64,000 nt of DNA from Xanthomonas hortorum pv. cynarae. GTDB lineage: Bacteria > Pseudomonadota > Gammaproteobacteria > Xanthomonadales > Xanthomonadaceae. Both the position numbers and the translations under genes were made by a program. Where the stretch lies: NCBI RefSeq assembly GCF_002939985.1, contig NZ_MDFM01000006.1, forward strand, positions 118,404-182,403, read 5' to 3'. Every line of letters starts with the position of its first letter. Within the stretch, counting starts at the first letter, position 1. This document shows positions 9,685 through 19,603 of the stretch, in pieces. The notes below the pieces were generated by a model. That model saw nothing but the letters and a program-made list of their open reading frames with translations. It was not told where the DNA came from and made no database searches.

Positions 9685-11514
<1,830 letters not shown>

Positions 11515-11551: not shown

Positions 11552-11624
11552 TGTCCGTTCTTGTCCGCTGCATGGCCGTGCCCGGACAGCGTGTCCGCGT
11601 TGATGTCCGCGGACACTGCGGACA
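11552..11624. promoter_or_regulatory. Cluster of seven TGTCCG/CGGACA hexamers, candidate enhancer
   Basis: Exact TGTCCG occurs at 11552, 11562, 11592 and 11604, and its complement CGGACA at 11583, 11610 and 11619. They form a perfect 12-bp palindrome TGTCCGCGGACA (11604-11615) and the inverted pair CGGACA-GCG-TGTCCG (11583-11597). Site starts are often 9-12 bases apart, close to a helical turn. The palindrome centre is about 88 bases upstream of the expected start from the sigma-54 promoter at 11670, a usual distance for an enhancer-binding protein. Binding by the response regulator encoded at 16899 is inferred. Confidence 0.65.
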
Positions 11625-11669
11625 CATGCGACCCGAACACAAAGACTTTTACTTTCAAACACTTGGCGA

Positions 11670-11686
11670 TTGGCACAGGTTCTGCT
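11670..11686 (+). promoter_or_regulatory. Sigma-54 (-24/-12) promoter of the efflux operon
   Basis: TTGGCACAGGTTCTGCT contains the invariant GG (11672-11673) and GC (11684-11685) separated by exactly ten bases, and the TGGCAC half is perfect. Transcription would begin near 11697, leaving a leader of about 22 bases before the ATG at 11719. A sigma-54 activator is encoded in the same gene block. Confidence 0.75.
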
Positions 11687-11718
11687 TTAGCGCAGTGACG
11701 CCAACGAGCCAGCCGATC

Positions 11719-12990
11719 ATGATTCGCGATACTTCTGCCCAGGACCAGGTTCTCCGTACATCCGCCCAGAGCACGCCATGGCGTCGTTGGCTGTGGCCCG
11801 GCATCGCTGCGGTCGCCGTGTTGGCCGGTATTGGTTGGGCGGTCACCGCGTGGAGCGCCGGCAGCCGCTCGTTCGATGCCAGCCGGGTGCGCATCGCCAC
11901 CGTCAGCCAGGGGGATCTGGTGCGCGACATCGCCGCCGACGGCCGCGTCATCGCCGCCAACAGCCCGGTGCTGTACGCCATCTCGGCCGGCACGGTGACG
12001 CTGAGCGTGGTGGCCGGCGACGTGGTCAAGCAGGGCCAGGAGCTGGCGCGCATCGACAGCCCGGAGCTGCGCAGCAAGCTGGCGCAGGAGCAGGCCACGC
12101 TGGCCGGCCTGGAGGCCGAATCCAGCCGCGCCGGGCTGGATGCCACGCTGGCCCGTGCCAACGCCAGCAAGCTCACCGACCAGGCCAAGATCGACAAGCA
12201 GGCCGCCGCACGCGACCTGGAGCGCTATCAGCGCGGCTACGATGGCGGCGCCGTGCCGCAGGTGGAACTGGCCAAGGCGCAGGACACCTTGAAGAAGACC
12301 GACATCGACCTGCAGCACGCCGAGCGCGATGCGTCGTTGAAGAGCCAGGGCGCGGATCTGGATTCGCGCAACAAGCGCCTGCTCGCCGACCGTCAACGCG
12401 CGGTGGTGGCCGAGGTGCAGCGCCAGGTCGATGCGCTCACGCTGCTGTCGCCGTTCGATGGTCAGGTCGGCCAGGTGCAGGCGGTGCAGCGCACCCAGGT
12501 CACTGCCAACGCACCGATCCTGGGCGTGGTGGATCTGTCCAAGTTCGAAGTCGAAATCAAGGTGCCCGAGAGCTTCGCGCGCGATCTGGCGATCGGCATG
12601 CCGGCCCAGCTCACCAGCGGTAATGGCGAGCCATTCCCGGGCGCCATCTCGGCGGTGTCGCCGGAAGTGGTCAACGGCGAAGTCACCGCGCGCATCCGCT
12701 TTGCCGACAAGCAGCCGCCGGGTCTGCGCCAGAGCCAGCGCATGAGCGCACGGGTGGTGATGGACACCCGCCGCAATGTGCTCAAGGTCGAACGCGGCCC
12801 GTTCGTCGAACAATCCGGCGGCAGCTACGCCTATGTGATGGATGGCAATACTGCGGTGCGCCGCCCCGTGCGCATGGGCGTCAGCAGCCTCGGCGAAGTA
12901 CAGGTGCTCTCCGGGCTGCAGGCGGGCGACCGCGTGGTGGTGTCCGGCGCAGATAACTTTGGAGATGCCCCGCGCGTCACCGTTCACTGA
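11719..12990 (+). CDS. Periplasmic adaptor (membrane-fusion protein, HlyD/MacA family) of an ABC efflux system
   Basis: 423-residue protein with one N-terminal membrane anchor (about residues 24-46). The standard adaptor layout follows: lipoyl/barrel half ([30 protein letters not shown]), a coiled-coil hairpin (about residues 115-220, rich in Lys, Glu and Ala), the second half-lipoyl ([15 protein letters not shown]) and a beta-barrel/membrane-proximal domain to the end. It should link the inner-membrane ABC transporter with an outer-membrane channel such as TolC, which is not encoded here. It is the first gene of the block, behind a sigma-54-type promoter, and 118 bases precede the ATPase. 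It has no lipobox, unlike some MacA homologues. Confidence 0.9.
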
Positions 12991-13108: not shown

Positions 13109-13828
<720 letters not shown>

Positions 13829-13839
13829 GGGGCATCTCC

Positions 13840-15132
13840 ATGTTCGGTTATTACTTCACTCTCGCGGTCCGCAGCTTCCGCCGCAACAAGATCCTCACCG
13901 CGCTGATGGTGCTGGCGATCGCTCTGGGCATCGGCGCCAGCATGACCACGCTGACGGTGTTCTACATCCTGTCTGGCGATCCGATACCTCAAAAAAGCGA
14001 ACGACTCTTCATCCCGCAAATCGATGCGCGCTCGCCGGGCCATCAAAGCACGGAAGCCCTGGAGCAATTGACACGCTTCGATGCCGAAAACTTACTGCGT
14101 GAGAAGCGCGGAGACCTTCAAGCGATGATGAGCGGCGGAAGCGTCCCGTTGGAGCCAGATAATTCTTCGGTGCGCCCGATGAAACTGGAGGCGCGCTATA
14201 CCTCCGCCGATTTCTTCCCGATGTTCAATCCGCCATTTCTCTACGGTGGCGCGTGGACGGCAAACGAGGACGGTAGCAGAGCGCGTGTCGCGGTGATCAC
14301 CGAAGAACTCAACAAAAAACTCTTCAACGGAGAGAATAGCGTTGGGCGTACGTTGCGTATAAATCGTCAGTCGTTCCGCATCGTCGGCGTTCTGCGCGAA
14401 TGGCGGCTGACCCCCAAGTTCTACGACCTCAGCAACAGCAGTTACGCCAAGTCGGAACAGTTGTTCGTTCCGTTCAGTGCCGCGATGGAACTGAAATTCC
14501 AGTCCAGCGGCTCGCGCTCCTGCTGGGGCGACAGTAAGGATGCAAACAGCACTGACCAAAAATGCTCATGGATTCAGTACTGGGTTCAGCTGGATAGCCC
14601 GCAAAAAGCGGCGGCCTACCGTCAATACCTGGAGAATTACTCCGACCAGCAACGGCGCGCCGGGCGCTTCGAGCGGCCGACCAATGTCCAGCTGCGTAGC
14701 GTCATGCAATGGATGGACTACAAGAAAGTGGTGCCCAGCGACGTTCGCCTGCAGACCTGGCTGGCATTGGGATTTCTGCTGGTGTGTCTGGTCAATACCG
14801 TGGGCCTGTTGCTTGCAAAGTTCATGCGTCGCAGTGGCGAAATCGGCGTACGCCGCGCGCTTGGCGCCACCAAACGCAGCATTTTTGCGCAGTCCCTGGT
14901 GGAGGCGGGAATGATCGGCCTGGCAGGCGGCATCTTGGGGCTCGGCCTCGCCACGCTAGGACTGTGGGGCGTGCGACAACAACCCTCTGATTATGCAGAG
15001 CTCGCACATCTTGATCCGCTGATGCTGCTGGTCACGTTCGCGCTTGCCCTGTTGGCCAGTGTCGTTGCCGGGCTACTCCCGGCATGGCGCGCCTGTTCCG
15101 TGCCACCTGCCATCCAACTCAAAGCGCAGTGA
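13840..15132 (+). CDS. MacB-like ABC permease 1 (periplasmic core + FtsX domain)
   Basis: 430-residue permease: one N-terminal membrane helix (ILTALMVLAIALGIGASMTT), a large periplasmic core domain (about residues 45-300), and an FtsX domain with three C-terminal helices (about residues 308-425). It contains the cytoplasmic coupling motif GEIGVRRALGATK that contacts the ATPase. Two cysteines in the periplasmic core (CWGDSK.., CSW) may form a disulfide. It presumably pairs with permease 2, each contributing one half of the transporter, unlike classical homodimeric MacB where permease and ATPase are fused. Codon choice in the periplasmic core looks somewhat less GC-rich than its neighbours. Confidence 0.9.
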   Translation: MFGYYFTLAVRSFRRNKILTALMVLAIALGIGASMTTLTVFYILSGDPIPQKSERLFIPQIDARSPGHQSTEALEQLTRFDAENLLREKRGDLQAMMSGGSVPLEPDNSSVRPMKLEARYTSADFFPMFNPPFLYGGAWTANEDGSRARVAVITEELNKKLFNGENSVGRTLRINRQSFRIVGVLREWRLTPKFYDLSNSSYAKSEQLFVPFSAAMELKFQSSGSRSCWGDSKDANSTDQKCSWIQYWVQLDSPQKAAAYRQYLENYSDQQRRAGRFERPTNVQLRSVMQWMDYKKVVPSDVRLQTWLALGFLLVCLVNTVGLLLAKFMRRSGEIGVRRALGATKRSIFAQSLVEAGMIGLAGGILGLGLATLGLWGVRQQPSDYAELAHLDPLMLLVTFALALLASVVAGLLPAWRACSVPPAIQLKAQ

Positions 15133-15195
15133 GATGCCGCCCTGATGGCGCCGCTCGCGCGTTGCCGTTGGCCAGCAACCATCAAGGAATCTTCA

Positions 15196-16404
15196 ATGGA
15201 AATCCGCCCCATCCTGTCCACCCTGCGCCGGCACAAGACCGCTGCGGCACTGATCATCCTCGAGGTGGCGCTGAGTTGCGCCATCATTTCCAATGCGCTG
15301 TTCCTGATCGGCAATCGCCTGGATCGCACGCAGCGCCCCAGCGGCCTTGCCGAAAACGAGCTCGTGACCATCAGCATCAGCGGCATCGGGGAAGACGATA
15401 ACGCCAATGCACTCACCGAGACCGACCTGGCCGCCTTGCGCAGTATCCCCGGCGTCAAGTTCGCCTCCGCAGTCAGCCAGATACCATTCGGTCAGAGCAT
15501 CTGGATCACCGGCCTGAAACTCACCGCCGATCAAGATATCTCCACGATTGACGTCAACAGCTACAACGGCGACGCCCAGACGCTGGACGCGATGGGGCTG
15601 AAACTTGTGCAGGGACGTCGTTTCACGGAGAGCGAATTCAGCTGGAACAGTGAAACGACGGCTGATAGCCCAAGCGTCATCCTCACCAAAAGCGCAGCAG
15701 ACAAGATGTTTCCCGGGCAATCTGCACTGGGCAAATCCATTTACATTGGACCGACACCCAGCAAGGTCGTTGGAATCGTCGAACACCTGGCGCGCGTTCT
15801 CGATTACGGCGGCGATTCCTCATACGACGACTCCATGCTGTCTCCGATCAAGGTGAGCTACAAAGATGGCGGGATGTATTTGCTACGCACCGATCCGGCG
15901 CGACGACAGGAAGTTCTGCGCCAGGCCGTCGCAGTGCTGGAGAAGAACAGCTCCAACCGCATCATCAAGAGCCCCACAACAGTAGAGGAAATGCGCAACG
16001 ACTATTATCGCCAGGACCGCTCCATGGCCTGGCTGCTGGTCACCATGAGCATCGCGCTGCTGATCGTCACCGCATTGGGCATCGTCGGCCTTGCAAGCTT
16101 CTGGGTGCAGCAACGCACCAAGCAGATCGGCATCCGCCGCGCACTAGGTGCGACACGAGGCCAGATCCTGCGTTACTTCCAGATCGAAAACTTCCTGCTC
16201 GCCTCGATCGGCATCGTGCTCGGCATGTTGATGGCGTATTCGATCAACCTCTGGTTGATGGCGCGTTACGAGTTGCCACGCTTGCCGTTGATCTATCTCC
16301 CGATCGGCGCAGTCACCTTGTGGGCACTCGGCCAGATCGCGGTGTTCTGGCCGGCCCGCCGCGCTGCGCTGGTGCCGCCGGCGGTGGCCACGCGTAGCGC
16401 GTGA
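15196..16404 (+). CDS. MacB-like ABC permease 2 (periplasmic core + FtsX domain)
   Basis: 402-residue permease with the same layout as the preceding gene: an N-terminal helix (AALIILEVALSCAIISNALFL), a periplasmic core (about residues 40-275) and three C-terminal membrane helices with the coupling motif TKQIGIRRALGATRG. The start at 15196 (MEIRPIL) follows a purine-rich AAGGAA. The pair of non-identical permeases plus a separate ATPase and adaptor is a recognised MacB-like efflux arrangement. Which compounds are moved cannot be read from the sequence. The next gene starts about 500 bases later, after a hairpin. Confidence 0.9.
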   Translation: MEIRPILSTLRRHKTAAALIILEVALSCAIISNALFLIGNRLDRTQRPSGLAENELVTISISGIGEDDNANALTETDLAALRSIPGVKFASAVSQIPFGQSIWITGLKLTADQDISTIDVNSYNGDAQTLDAMGLKLVQGRRFTESEFSWNSETTADSPSVILTKSAADKMFPGQSALGKSIYIGPTPSKVVGIVEHLARVLDYGGDSSYDDSMLSPIKVSYKDGGMYLLRTDPARRQEVLRQAVAVLEKNSSNRIIKSPTTVEEMRNDYYRQDRSMAWLLVTMSIALLIVTALGIVGLASFWVQQRTKQIGIRRALGATRGQILRYFQIENFLLASIGIVLGMLMAYSINLWLMARYELPRLPLIYLPIGAVTLWALGQIAVFWPARRAALVPPAVATRSA

Positions 16405-16415
16405 TGTATCTCCGC

Positions 16416-16447
16416 ACATCGTCGGGGCGATGCCGCCGACGATGTGC
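16416..16447. terminator. Strong hairpin after permease 2, possible terminator or attenuator
   Basis: Inverted repeat CACATCGTCGG (16416 onward) and CCGACGATGTG with a loop of about ten bases, starting 12 bases after the permease 2 stop. There is no U-tract, so it may only reduce read-through into the regulator gene. Confidence 0.5.
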
Positions 16448-16527
16448 GGCGGCGGTAAGCCGCTTACACAGATCGCGCAATTGGTCACCACCCTGCCTGC
16501 CACTGCGGGCCGCGCTGCCACCAGGCA

Positions 16528-16557
16528 GATCCAGCGCGATCCAGCGCGATCCAGCGT
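16528..16557. repeat. Three tandem copies of decamer GATCCAGCGC
   Basis: Copies at 16528-16537, 16538-16547 and 16548-16557; the third ends in T. The separate hexamer tandem CCTTGA x3 plus CCTAGA follows at 16564-16587. Confidence 0.85.
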
Positions 16558-16898
16558 CGATATCCTTGACCTTGACCTTGACCTAGACCGCTGAGGCGCA
16601 GGCATCGTCCATTCCTTCGCTGAGGCATACAGCACCGCCACAACTTTGCCACCGACAGGCTGCAACACCTGCACGTGTCCGGACTACTTGGGTCCGGCAG
16701 GTCAACCATCGTGACGAAGCCTCCTGCATCACCGCGCCTTTGCCAAACCGCAACGACCTCTACACGCCAAACGCAGTTGTGTGCGGTCAAACCAAGCGCA
16801 GGCATCCCTACACTTCACCTGCGACGCGTCACCCGTTCCGCAGCGTGCCGAATCCTGTTCTGATAGCCCTTCTCCCCGCGCCTTTCACCGAGCACCCG

Positions 16899-18238
<1,340 letters not shown>

Positions 18239-18242
<4 letters not shown>

Positions 18243-19603
18243 TTCCCCGCATGTGGCAGCGTTCTTTCACATTTTCCCTGTTTTTGCGGCTGTTGCCGGT
18301 GCTGGCGCTGGCGGCCGCGCTGCCTTGGTTCACGGCGTACTGGCTGGACCGTGGCTGGGAAGTGGCGGTGTTATCGGCAGTGGTTCTATTGTCGGCAATG
18401 TGGTTCAGCCTCAGCCGCGCCACAGCTCCGATGCGCTCGCTGTTCCGCGCATTGGCCGGCACCACCAGCAGCTACCGCGATGGCGAATACAACTTCGGCG
18501 TGTATTGGCGCGGCACCGACGAGCTGGCACAGCTGGTGCAGGCGCACGCAGAACTAGGCGAGGTGCTGCGCGCGCAACGGCGCAATCTGGTACAGCGCGA
18601 ATTGATGCTCGACACCATGTTGCAGAACACCCCGGTGGCGATGTTGCTGGTTGTCGCCGGCGGCGATGGTGTGCGCCGTATTGGTTTCTCCAACAACGCT
18701 GCGCGCAAGCTGCTGCATGACGGTCGCAAACTCGAAGGCCAGCATCTGGACGATGTGCTCGGCCGCATGCCGAACGAATTGCGTGATGCATTGGCACGTG
18801 GCGGCGATTGTCTGTTCGCAGTACGCGAAGACGGCGATGACGAAGACGACGAGCAGATCTATCACCTCTCCCGCCGCAGTTTTCATCTCAACGGACGCGG
18901 CCACGAGCTGTTGCTGATCCGCACCTTGACCAACGAATTGCGCCGCCAGGAAGTGCAGACCTGGAAGAAGGTGATCCGCGTGATCAGCCACGAGTTGAAC
19001 AATTCGCTTGCACCGATCGCCTCGTTGGCGCATTCCGGCGCCGAGTTGCTGCGTCGCGAACGTACCGACCGGCTTGGCATCGTGTTCGAAACTATCGAAG
19101 AGCGCGCACGCCATCTGGAAGGCTTCATTCGCGGCTACGCACGCTTTGCCAAGTTGCCGCAGCCGCAGCTGCAGACCATCGAATGGGCGCCGTTTCTGGA
19201 GCGTTTGCGGCAACAGATCCCGTTCCAGCTGCAAGGCGCACTGGCGGATGTCTCCAGCCGCATCGATGCGGCGCAAATCGAGCAGGCATTGCTCAACCTG
19301 CTCAAAAATGCACACGAGGCCTGCAGCGAGGCGCAGCCATCCAACAGCGACGTCGCTGTGCGCGTGACCCGCGTGCCGCAATGGCTACGCATCGAAGTGC
19401 TGGACCGCGGCAACGGCATGAACGAGGCCGTGCTGCATAACGCACTGATGCCGTTCTACTCGACCAAGCGCAACGGCACCGGGCTCGGGCTTGCGCTCAC
19501 CCGCGAGATCGCCGAAGCCCACGGCGGGCGCATCTCGCTGCATAACCGCGAACACGGCGGGCTATGTGTCACCTTGTTGCTGCCGTTTGCGACGGCCGGT
19601 TAG
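18239..19603 (+). CDS. Sensor histidine kinase, partner of the sigma-54 regulator
   Basis: 454-residue membrane kinase. Two closely spaced N-terminal helices (about residues 10-60) leave almost no periplasmic loop, so it probably senses a signal within the membrane or in the cytoplasm. Next come a HAMP-like/PAS region (about residues 65-220), the H-box VISHELNNSLAPI with His251, and the ATPase domain: N-box LLNLLKNAHEA, G1 LDRGNGM, F-box FYSTKRNG and G2 GTGLGLALT. The NtrY/NtrB-type HELNNSLAPI box matches kinases that pair with sigma-54 regulators. Translation is coupled to the upstream regulator through ATGA. It ends 41 bases from the convergent beta-helix gene. Confidence 0.93.

Follow-up and report, generated by a model that had tools for sequence, protein, structure and literature searches.

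A hexamer array and sigma-54 promoter as the probable control element of a MacB/FtsX-type efflux operon and an unlinked exported-protein gene in Xanthomonas hortorum

The seven hexamers and the sigma-54 promoter that lie between glmS and a run of efflux genes in Xanthomonas hortorum pv. cynarae are best read, with a probability of roughly 0.8 on the basis of sequence comparison, as the enhancer and promoter of a self-regulated tripartite efflux operon of the MacB/FtsX type, whose NtrC-type regulator would also drive an exported-protein gene in trans. NtrC/sigma-54 control is a class already known, of which this module and its code form a variant.

The array, its promoter and the genes behind them

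Within the window, that is the whole 64,000-nucleotide stretch analysed, word positions and conservation delimit the enhancer at 11552–11624 (no strand assigned). TGTCCG starts at 11552, 11562, 11592 and 11604, and CGGACA at 11583, 11610 and 11619; the four and three copies that the initial annotation had counted in 73 bp were thereby re-found, together with the 12-bp palindrome TGTCCGCGGACA at 11604–11615 inside the array. TGTCCG shows no enrichment across the window as a whole (44 found, 44.15 expected). The array itself holds seven TGTCCG/CGGACA hexamers per 73 bp versus one to three in 200 dinucleotide shuffles, none of which ever exceeded three, which upholds the claim that it goes beyond chance expectation; and when the 204-bp intergenic region was shuffled 500 times, the most frequent hexamer, whichever it was, had at most five copies, compared with the seven seen. 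Chance clustering of the hexamers is ruled out by these shuffles.

The word is better given as [TC]GTCCG than as TGTCCG. A single dyad spacing rule was ruled out, since pair distances vary between loci: T-to-C distances of 6, 18, 14 and 26 are the commonest at the operon, and 10 or 11 are common at the XAC0231 gene discussed below, so that we describe the sites as arrays of half-sites. Upstream of L414, a locus of a distant family, three TGTCCG copies are spaced by exactly 21 bp and make a very regular version of such an array.

Forty-six bases separate the last hexamer from the T of the sigma-54 promoter TGGCACAGGTTCTGC (11671–11685, forward strand), which is assigned by sequence match and conservation and whose GG (11672–11673) and GC (11684–11685), ten bases apart, confirm the GG-N10-GC element initially placed at 11672–11685. 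From the position of this promoter only, transcription is predicted to start near 11697. Between array and promoter, TTTCAAACACTTG (11653–11665, forward strand) is a candidate DNA-bending site, called IHF-like on account of a single mismatch to WATCAANNNNTTR, which we take to be the IHF consensus. The available text on X. fastidiosa glnA reports AATCAA-N4-TTG as an IHF site (PMC3224663).

All genes of the operon lie on the forward strand. The first (11719–12990) encodes a 423-aa periplasmic adaptor of the HlyD/RND_mfp type (Pfam HlyD_3 and HlyD_D23; TIGR01730), followed by a LolD/MacB/DarD-like ABC ATPase (13109–13828, with a start at 13109 or 13118; Pfam ABC_tran), whose best NCBIfam match, DarD, stays below its cut-off. 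Two MacB/FtsX-type permeases come next, permease 1 at 13840–15132 (Pfam MacB_PCD and FtsX) and permease 2 at 15196–16404 (likely start 15196; Pfam FtsX and MacB_PCD), which align to the first and second halves of ADOP, respectively, both below cut-off. The run ends, as the initial annotation had it, with an NtrC-type response regulator of 447 aa (16899–18242), made of receiver, sigma-54 AAA+ and Fis-type HTH domains (Pfam Sigma54_activat, HTH_8), and a histidine kinase (18239–19603) that combines a HATPase domain with a pair of closely spaced membrane helices at the N terminus, its HisKA match being below cut-off. The divergent neighbour glmS (9685–11514, reverse strand) is judged to be outside the system because the hexamers persist without it. 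A long gap (16405–16898) separates permease 2 from the regulator gene. It contains one TGTCCG (16676) and nothing that is clearly a sigma-54 promoter; the regulator gene may have a promoter of its own.

In the recognition helix of the regulator, R432, Q433, Y436, R437 and R438 are invariant in 146 of 146 orthologues, which come from the fetched loci and include related ones, and the linker that precedes the HTH shows little conservation in this set; the invariant residues fit one conserved binding word. The protein remains below the cut-offs of the NtrC model TIGR01818 (343.2 versus 558.6 bits), the PrsR model TIGR02915 of the PrsK/PrsR system associated with PEP-CTERM (328.9 versus 502.6 bits) and the ZraR model NF007689 (265 versus 760 bits), as well as those of the AtoC and NtrX models, and no function is described for this NtrC-type regulator in the literature searched. 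As for the kinase, 107 orthologues were scored and 105 show two helices or more; in 103 of these, two close ones are joined by a loop of fewer than 20 residues, helices being defined by simple hydropathy alone; a third, weaker hydrophobic stretch is seen in 43 of the 107, including that of the window. The kinase thus appears to be without a periplasmic domain.

Conservation of the element and its link to the regulator

The upstream region was matched in all 35 Xanthomonas genomes, the match covering only the glmS side in G020 and falling into two pieces in G019 because the operon has decayed there. Upstream of the adaptor gene, all 80 named loci have the promoter-like GGCAY-N6-TGC and two or more exact hexamers. 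In the family, where the adaptor is found at E <1e-40 in 128 of 149 genomes, 129 places were considered (30 were returned as loci and 80 of the other 99 were fetched, together with five Xanthomonas outliers), and 112 loci were retained from 185 candidates (L032, L038–L221) after dropping those with no usable adaptor match, with fewer than 253 bases upstream or at least 80% alike. In this set, CGGACA on either strand occurs in 107 of 112 upstream zones versus 13 of 112 adjacent control zones (largely glmS coding DNA), at least two copies of [TC]GTCCG are present at 111 of 112 loci, and the mean [TC]GTCCG count is 5.08 versus 0.46 in shuffles. GGCAY-N6-TGC with at least two [TC]GTCCG 20–140 bp upstream was found at 110 of the 112, compared with 10 of 112 for promoter and hexamers in a reverse-strand control of the same DNA; the two exceptions, L194 and L216, both have hexamers.

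Written as TGGCAC-N5-YTGC with at most one mismatch, the promoter is present at 106 of the 112 family loci, and no more than 60 bp upstream of it WATCAANNNNTTR recurs with at most one mismatch at 72 of these 106 (1.4 expected) and exactly at 20 (0.1 expected). The gap from the nearest hexamer to the promoter clusters at 35–39 and 44–47 bp, with four loci at 26 bp (family loci, kinship ignored); the two clusters are about one helical turn apart, as expected of a looping activator. Upstream arrays, IHF-like site and promoter together make up the classical NtrC/sigma-54 layout, and looping activation is therefore the natural reading.

In a search of the order, the adaptor was found in 108 of 200 genomes. 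Forty loci outside the family were taken, and the regulator was sought anywhere in each genome. Where an orthologue of the regulator is present (58–73% identity over nearly the full length), the element precedes the operon at 27 of 27 loci, versus none of 11 loci where it is absent (eight genomes of family f7, two of f4 and one of f10). With the relaxed word this contrast (27/27 versus 0/11) gives a Fisher value of 8e-10, and with exact TGTCCG only (24/27 versus 0/11) one of 3e-7, both ignoring kinship; the relaxed site definition was set after exceptions had been met under a stricter one. As counterexamples, L183 and L408 dissolved, the element lying about 150 bp further upstream in the former and the latter using CGGACG variants. 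Two genomes, G217 and G223, were set aside as ambiguous (completeness 80 and 84%, so that the assemblies may have missed the regulator, and little upstream DNA); their best regulator match reaches only 44–45%, like those of G180 and G186, and the element was found in one of the two. Counted as regulator-less, they bring the figure to 1 of 13 (Fisher 2e-9, kinship ignored). Among the genomes counted, G333 and G186 are 87 and 89% complete, and the absence of the regulator from G207, G232, G186 and G180 was scored on 40 of the first-look candidates only. Conservation of the hexamers in orthologous operons, the lack of which the initial annotation had named as fatal to its model, is seen in the genus, in the family and in other families of the order.

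Regulator and operon are far apart on the same contig in G179 (about 1.1 Mb), G224 (about 1.2 Mb) and G132 (about 0.27 Mb), and in G196, G187 and G340 the two lie on different contigs, that of the operon running tens of kb further without the regulator; G225, whose contig ends early, is uninformative on linkage. In the genomes with an unlinked regulator the element is still found at the operon (for G132, at L180 and L333), so that physical linkage is not what keeps the hexamers.

Further targets and joint loss

TGTCCG-N0-15-CGGACA occurs at six places in the X. hortorum genome, three of them in the array and one at a second locus, C8:102410–102511, where TGTCCGCGGCCGGACA, another CGGACA and the promoter TGGCACGCCACTTGC repeat the layout of the operon; at C5:194421 and C8:47574 there is no suitably placed sigma-54 promoter, and these two appear to be chance matches. 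The pattern read backwards, as a control in the same genome, gave 11 places. The scan for clusters of the same spacing that had been suggested with the initial annotation thus returned one further site of the same layout, the half-site spacing itself differing between promoters.

The gene at the second locus (G000:C8:101793–102511 with its hexamers and sigma-54 promoter; L232, L293) encodes a protein of 153 aa with, by eye, a signal-peptide-like N terminus and three LxTVQVRPSAEQ-type repeats, which matches the XAC0231 family model NF052303 at 220.6 bits (cut-off 140) and has no match in Pfam; XAC0231 is not mentioned in the literature searched. The gene adjoins a trmL-like gene (SpoU methylase; the TrmL model is just below cut-off). 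Its leader, from promoter to start codon, is about 160 bases long and contains, by eye, a conserved second promoter-like block.

XAC0231 matches were found in 34 of 35 Xanthomonas genomes, the one without (G028) being 81% complete. The gene is full-length with the promoter and at least two hexamers in 28 of these 34; in G009, G021 and G026 the gene is there with hexamers (by eye) and a degenerate promoter, and in G019, G020 and G029 nothing is left but remnants or a copy interrupted by stops. In the family as a whole the protein occurs in 34 of 149 genomes belonging to 12 genera, and the element precedes 27 of the 30 family XAC0231 loci returned, being absent at L302, L318 and L319. The exported protein is weakly matched in G083, where the operon is absent. 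The code that the initial annotation assigned to the efflux block is thus conserved there without being private to it, as it also precedes the gene of an unlinked exported protein.

In other genera the element precedes genes for other small proteins with hydrophobic N termini (L341, L343, L423, L337, L339, L344, L420, L421 and L432). In L341, L343 and L423 a trmL-like gene follows immediately, as it does at XAC0231, and the small proteins of L341, L344, L337 and L420 have no Pfam or NCBIfam match. A possible third target was noticed in four of the 35 Xanthomonas genomes (G018, G028, G031 and G032; L291, L417, L418 and L419), where an S41-family peptidase gene sits behind hexamers and TGGCATGCCGATTGC; the peptidase of L291 scores 30.2 bits (cut-off 24), and the other three were judged by similarity to it. 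Separately, a distant genome (G156:C8, L422) has another HlyD-type adaptor gene behind two CGGACA copies and a sigma-54 promoter. Several matches to the pattern across the family look like chance, having only one or two hexamers and being followed by other genes.

Among the 21 family genomes without an adaptor match, 19 have no regulator orthologue either, the other two, G074 and G171, being 76 and 71% complete. In G019 and G020, which are 91–98% identical in the region and were counted as one event, the operon is lost save for the kinase and promoter-side remnants, glmS is intact, no regulator orthologue is present and the XAC0231 gene is reduced to its 3' part; G019 retains hexamers and promoter at the decayed operon. 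In G029 both the adaptor gene and the XAC0231 gene are broken, and no regulator orthologue was found. The operon and the unlinked XAC0231 locus have accordingly been lost together about twice (three genomes), a joint loss to which general genome decay may contribute. The exception is G166, one of the 19 family genomes with neither adaptor match nor regulator orthologue (best regulator match 41%) and rated 100% complete; the element persists there in front of a truncated adaptor gene close to the end of a contig, and again in front of an XAC0231-like gene (L424, L425); recent loss of the regulator or another activator would explain it.

Alternatives, mechanism and related systems

That another NtrC-type activator, such as NtrC or XibR, reads hexamers and promoter while the linked regulator is a passenger seems improbable to us: genomes do carry NtrC-type paralogues (about 40–46% identical in full-length matches), and G166 combines such paralogues and a retained element with the lack of an orthologue, but G180 and G186, which have NtrC-type paralogues and no regulator, are without hexamers and promoter, and XibR of X. 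campestris, in the available part of its description, is an orphan of another size (433 aa) with no sensor linked to it (PMC5130282), unlike the linked regulator. YipR was set aside, as the Xanthomonas motif reported for it in the text available, CCCTCTC, is another word (PMC6941359). Lower still is the probability that the array acts on the divergent glmS, for instance as an operator of that gene. The hexamers do lie in an intergenic region common to both genes, the nearest 38 bp from the glmS start; against this, they stay where there is no upstream glmS match (e.g. L177, L179, L184, L213–L216 and L218), 39 of the 40 loci outside the family have no glmS in the stretch fetched, their spacing clusters relative to the sigma-54 promoter of the operon, and they recur at an unlinked gene, so that a glmS operator was rejected. 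Intergenic DNA often contains short inverted repeats, which would suit an array that is only a repeat or a structural feature, conserved by descent and with no part in regulation; this we find barely credible, the array being absent at all 11 loci with the operon but without the regulator and present at other genes in a similar layout. Reading of the hexamers by the linked regulator, as first proposed, is on the other hand probable from its presence and absence across genomes, from the unlinked loci and from joint decay, with G166, which keeps the element without an orthologue, counting against it.

In the mechanism that we favour, the membrane kinase, once stimulated, would phosphorylate the NtrC-type regulator, which would bind the [TC]GTCCG half-site arrays with which it co-occurs; IHF, to judge from the conserved site, would bend the intervening DNA, and the AAA+ domain of the regulator would open sigma-54 RNA polymerase at TGGCAC-N5-YTGC. 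Expression of adaptor, ATPase and permeases would rise, along with that of the regulatory pair if the transcript reads through. The same regulator would drive in trans the unlinked gene of a small exported protein, of the XAC0231 family in Xanthomonas and relatives and elsewhere perhaps of other small exported proteins, some encoded beside a trmL-like gene.

Compared pairwise across 22 Xanthomonas loci (L078 and L083 were left out), adaptor and ATPase have a median identity of 96%, glmS one of 97% and regulator and kinase one of 94% (the kinase from 21 loci), against only 80 and 75% for the two permeases, which split into distinct types at 85% identity. At 63 of the 80 named loci a single stretch carries both ATPase and regulator, and two permease genes are found in 50 of these, three in 2, four in 10 and six in 1; the stretches covered for the other 17 are without one or the other gene and may hide longer arrays. 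The pump core thus seems to be exchanged or duplicated while the switch is constant, which suggests that the permeases (13840–16404 in the window; loci L062–L141) are exchangeable cassettes.

Bce-type modules have an OmpR-type regulator. As far as the available text describes it (PMC7828314), BceAB-BceRS of Firmicutes resembles the present system in combining an ABC permease, an ATPase, a kinase without extracellular sensing domain and a response regulator, and Bacillus BceS, a kinase of the same build, is controlled by its transporter; the system described here differs in its NtrC-type regulator, sigma-54, periplasmic adaptor and two permease genes. The Bce-type arrangement of two helices, a short loop and no periplasmic domain is found in our kinase (by hydropathy only), whereas a single large BceB-type permease with an OmpR-type regulator is not what the operon contains. 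With no apparent periplasmic domain in the kinase and with the transporter control of BceS in mind, it is plausible that the pump informs the kinase, and one may speculate that the latter monitors the membrane or even the pump, in the manner of BceS in Firmicutes. Extended further, the system would be a Gram-negative counterpart of the Bce type, in which a kinase without outside domain reads the FtsX-type pump, a sigma-54 regulator acting on hexamer arrays adjusts the pump together with its partner in the envelope, a secreted repeat protein, and the permease pair (two, three, four or six genes) is an exchangeable cassette between constant adaptor/ATPase and regulatory genes; we hold this extension to be tentative and rather unlikely in full. 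Somewhat short of an even chance, and in other respects compatible with the main model, is that the kinase senses a ligand of its own or membrane damage and the pump has no part in sensing: the signal may not be permease-specific, as kinase and regulator are conserved (median 94%) while the permeases differ (80 and 75%), but a periplasmic domain seems to be missing from the kinase, which accompanies FtsX-type permeases, as in Bce-type modules to the extent that these are described in the text available (PMC7828314). If the Bce-type extension were true, one sensing and switching circuit would serve changing substrates.

In ZraPSR, too, an NtrC-type regulator and a kinase control a small periplasmic protein, and there is no efflux operon; the likeness lies in the NtrC-type pair and its small exported-protein target, the difference in the efflux operon found here. 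MacAB-TolC and the darobactin exporter (DarB, DarC, DarD) share the adaptor, a MacB/FtsX permease and a related ATPase with our operon, which differs from both by two separate permease genes and by scores below the family cut-offs: ATPase and permease are not fused as in MacB (separate genes, the highest PRK10535 score being 214 versus 966 bits), and DarD (259.1 versus 375 bits) and DarC (53.6 versus 450 bits) remain under their thresholds. NtrC-type enhancer-binding proteins have the same activator build of receiver, AAA+ and Fis-type HTH domains, and NtrC-type/sigma-54/IHF systems such as X. fastidiosa glnA, as described in the text available (PMC3224663), have upstream sites, an IHF-like site and a GG-N10-GC promoter as well; what sets the present system apart from them is that its sites are [TC]GTCCG half-site arrays, that the target is an efflux operon and that its dedicated regulator scores below the model cut-offs.

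A survey of 2025 predicted sigma-54 enrichment for COG0577 (FtsX-type) permeases in gamma-Proteobacteria, calling it first evidence, and agrees with our findings in placing sigma-54 promoters before this class of transporters; its available text names no activator, binding sites or second target (PMC12316311). SmaCDEF of Stenotrophomonas maltophilia (Smlt1651–1654), described in the available parts of two papers as an ABC-type efflux pump (PMC11356428, PMC12189255), is likewise a four-gene ABC-type efflux block of a relative; comparing its locus tags with location only, the orthologue of our operon differs in lying at about 4.13 Mb in S. maltophilia D457 (L131), and that of S. maltophilia EA1 adjoins glmS (L107). 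A review of sigma-54 in plant pathogens covers FleQ, PilRX and PrpR in Xanthomonas and, in the part available, calls three further NtrC-family proteins of X. oryzae unstudied (PMC8657755). The literature searched, with subscription papers largely outside its scope, holds no description of the sites, of the targets of the regulator or of XAC0231.

In summary, the array and its promoter offer a readable and testable regulatory code for an efflux system that is widespread in the family and in other families of the order, with bearers that include plant pathogens and Stenotrophomonas, and the code ties this system to an uncharacterised family of exported proteins. It proposes targets for the NtrC-type regulator, and through it the question of what MacB-like pumps respond to becomes approachable.
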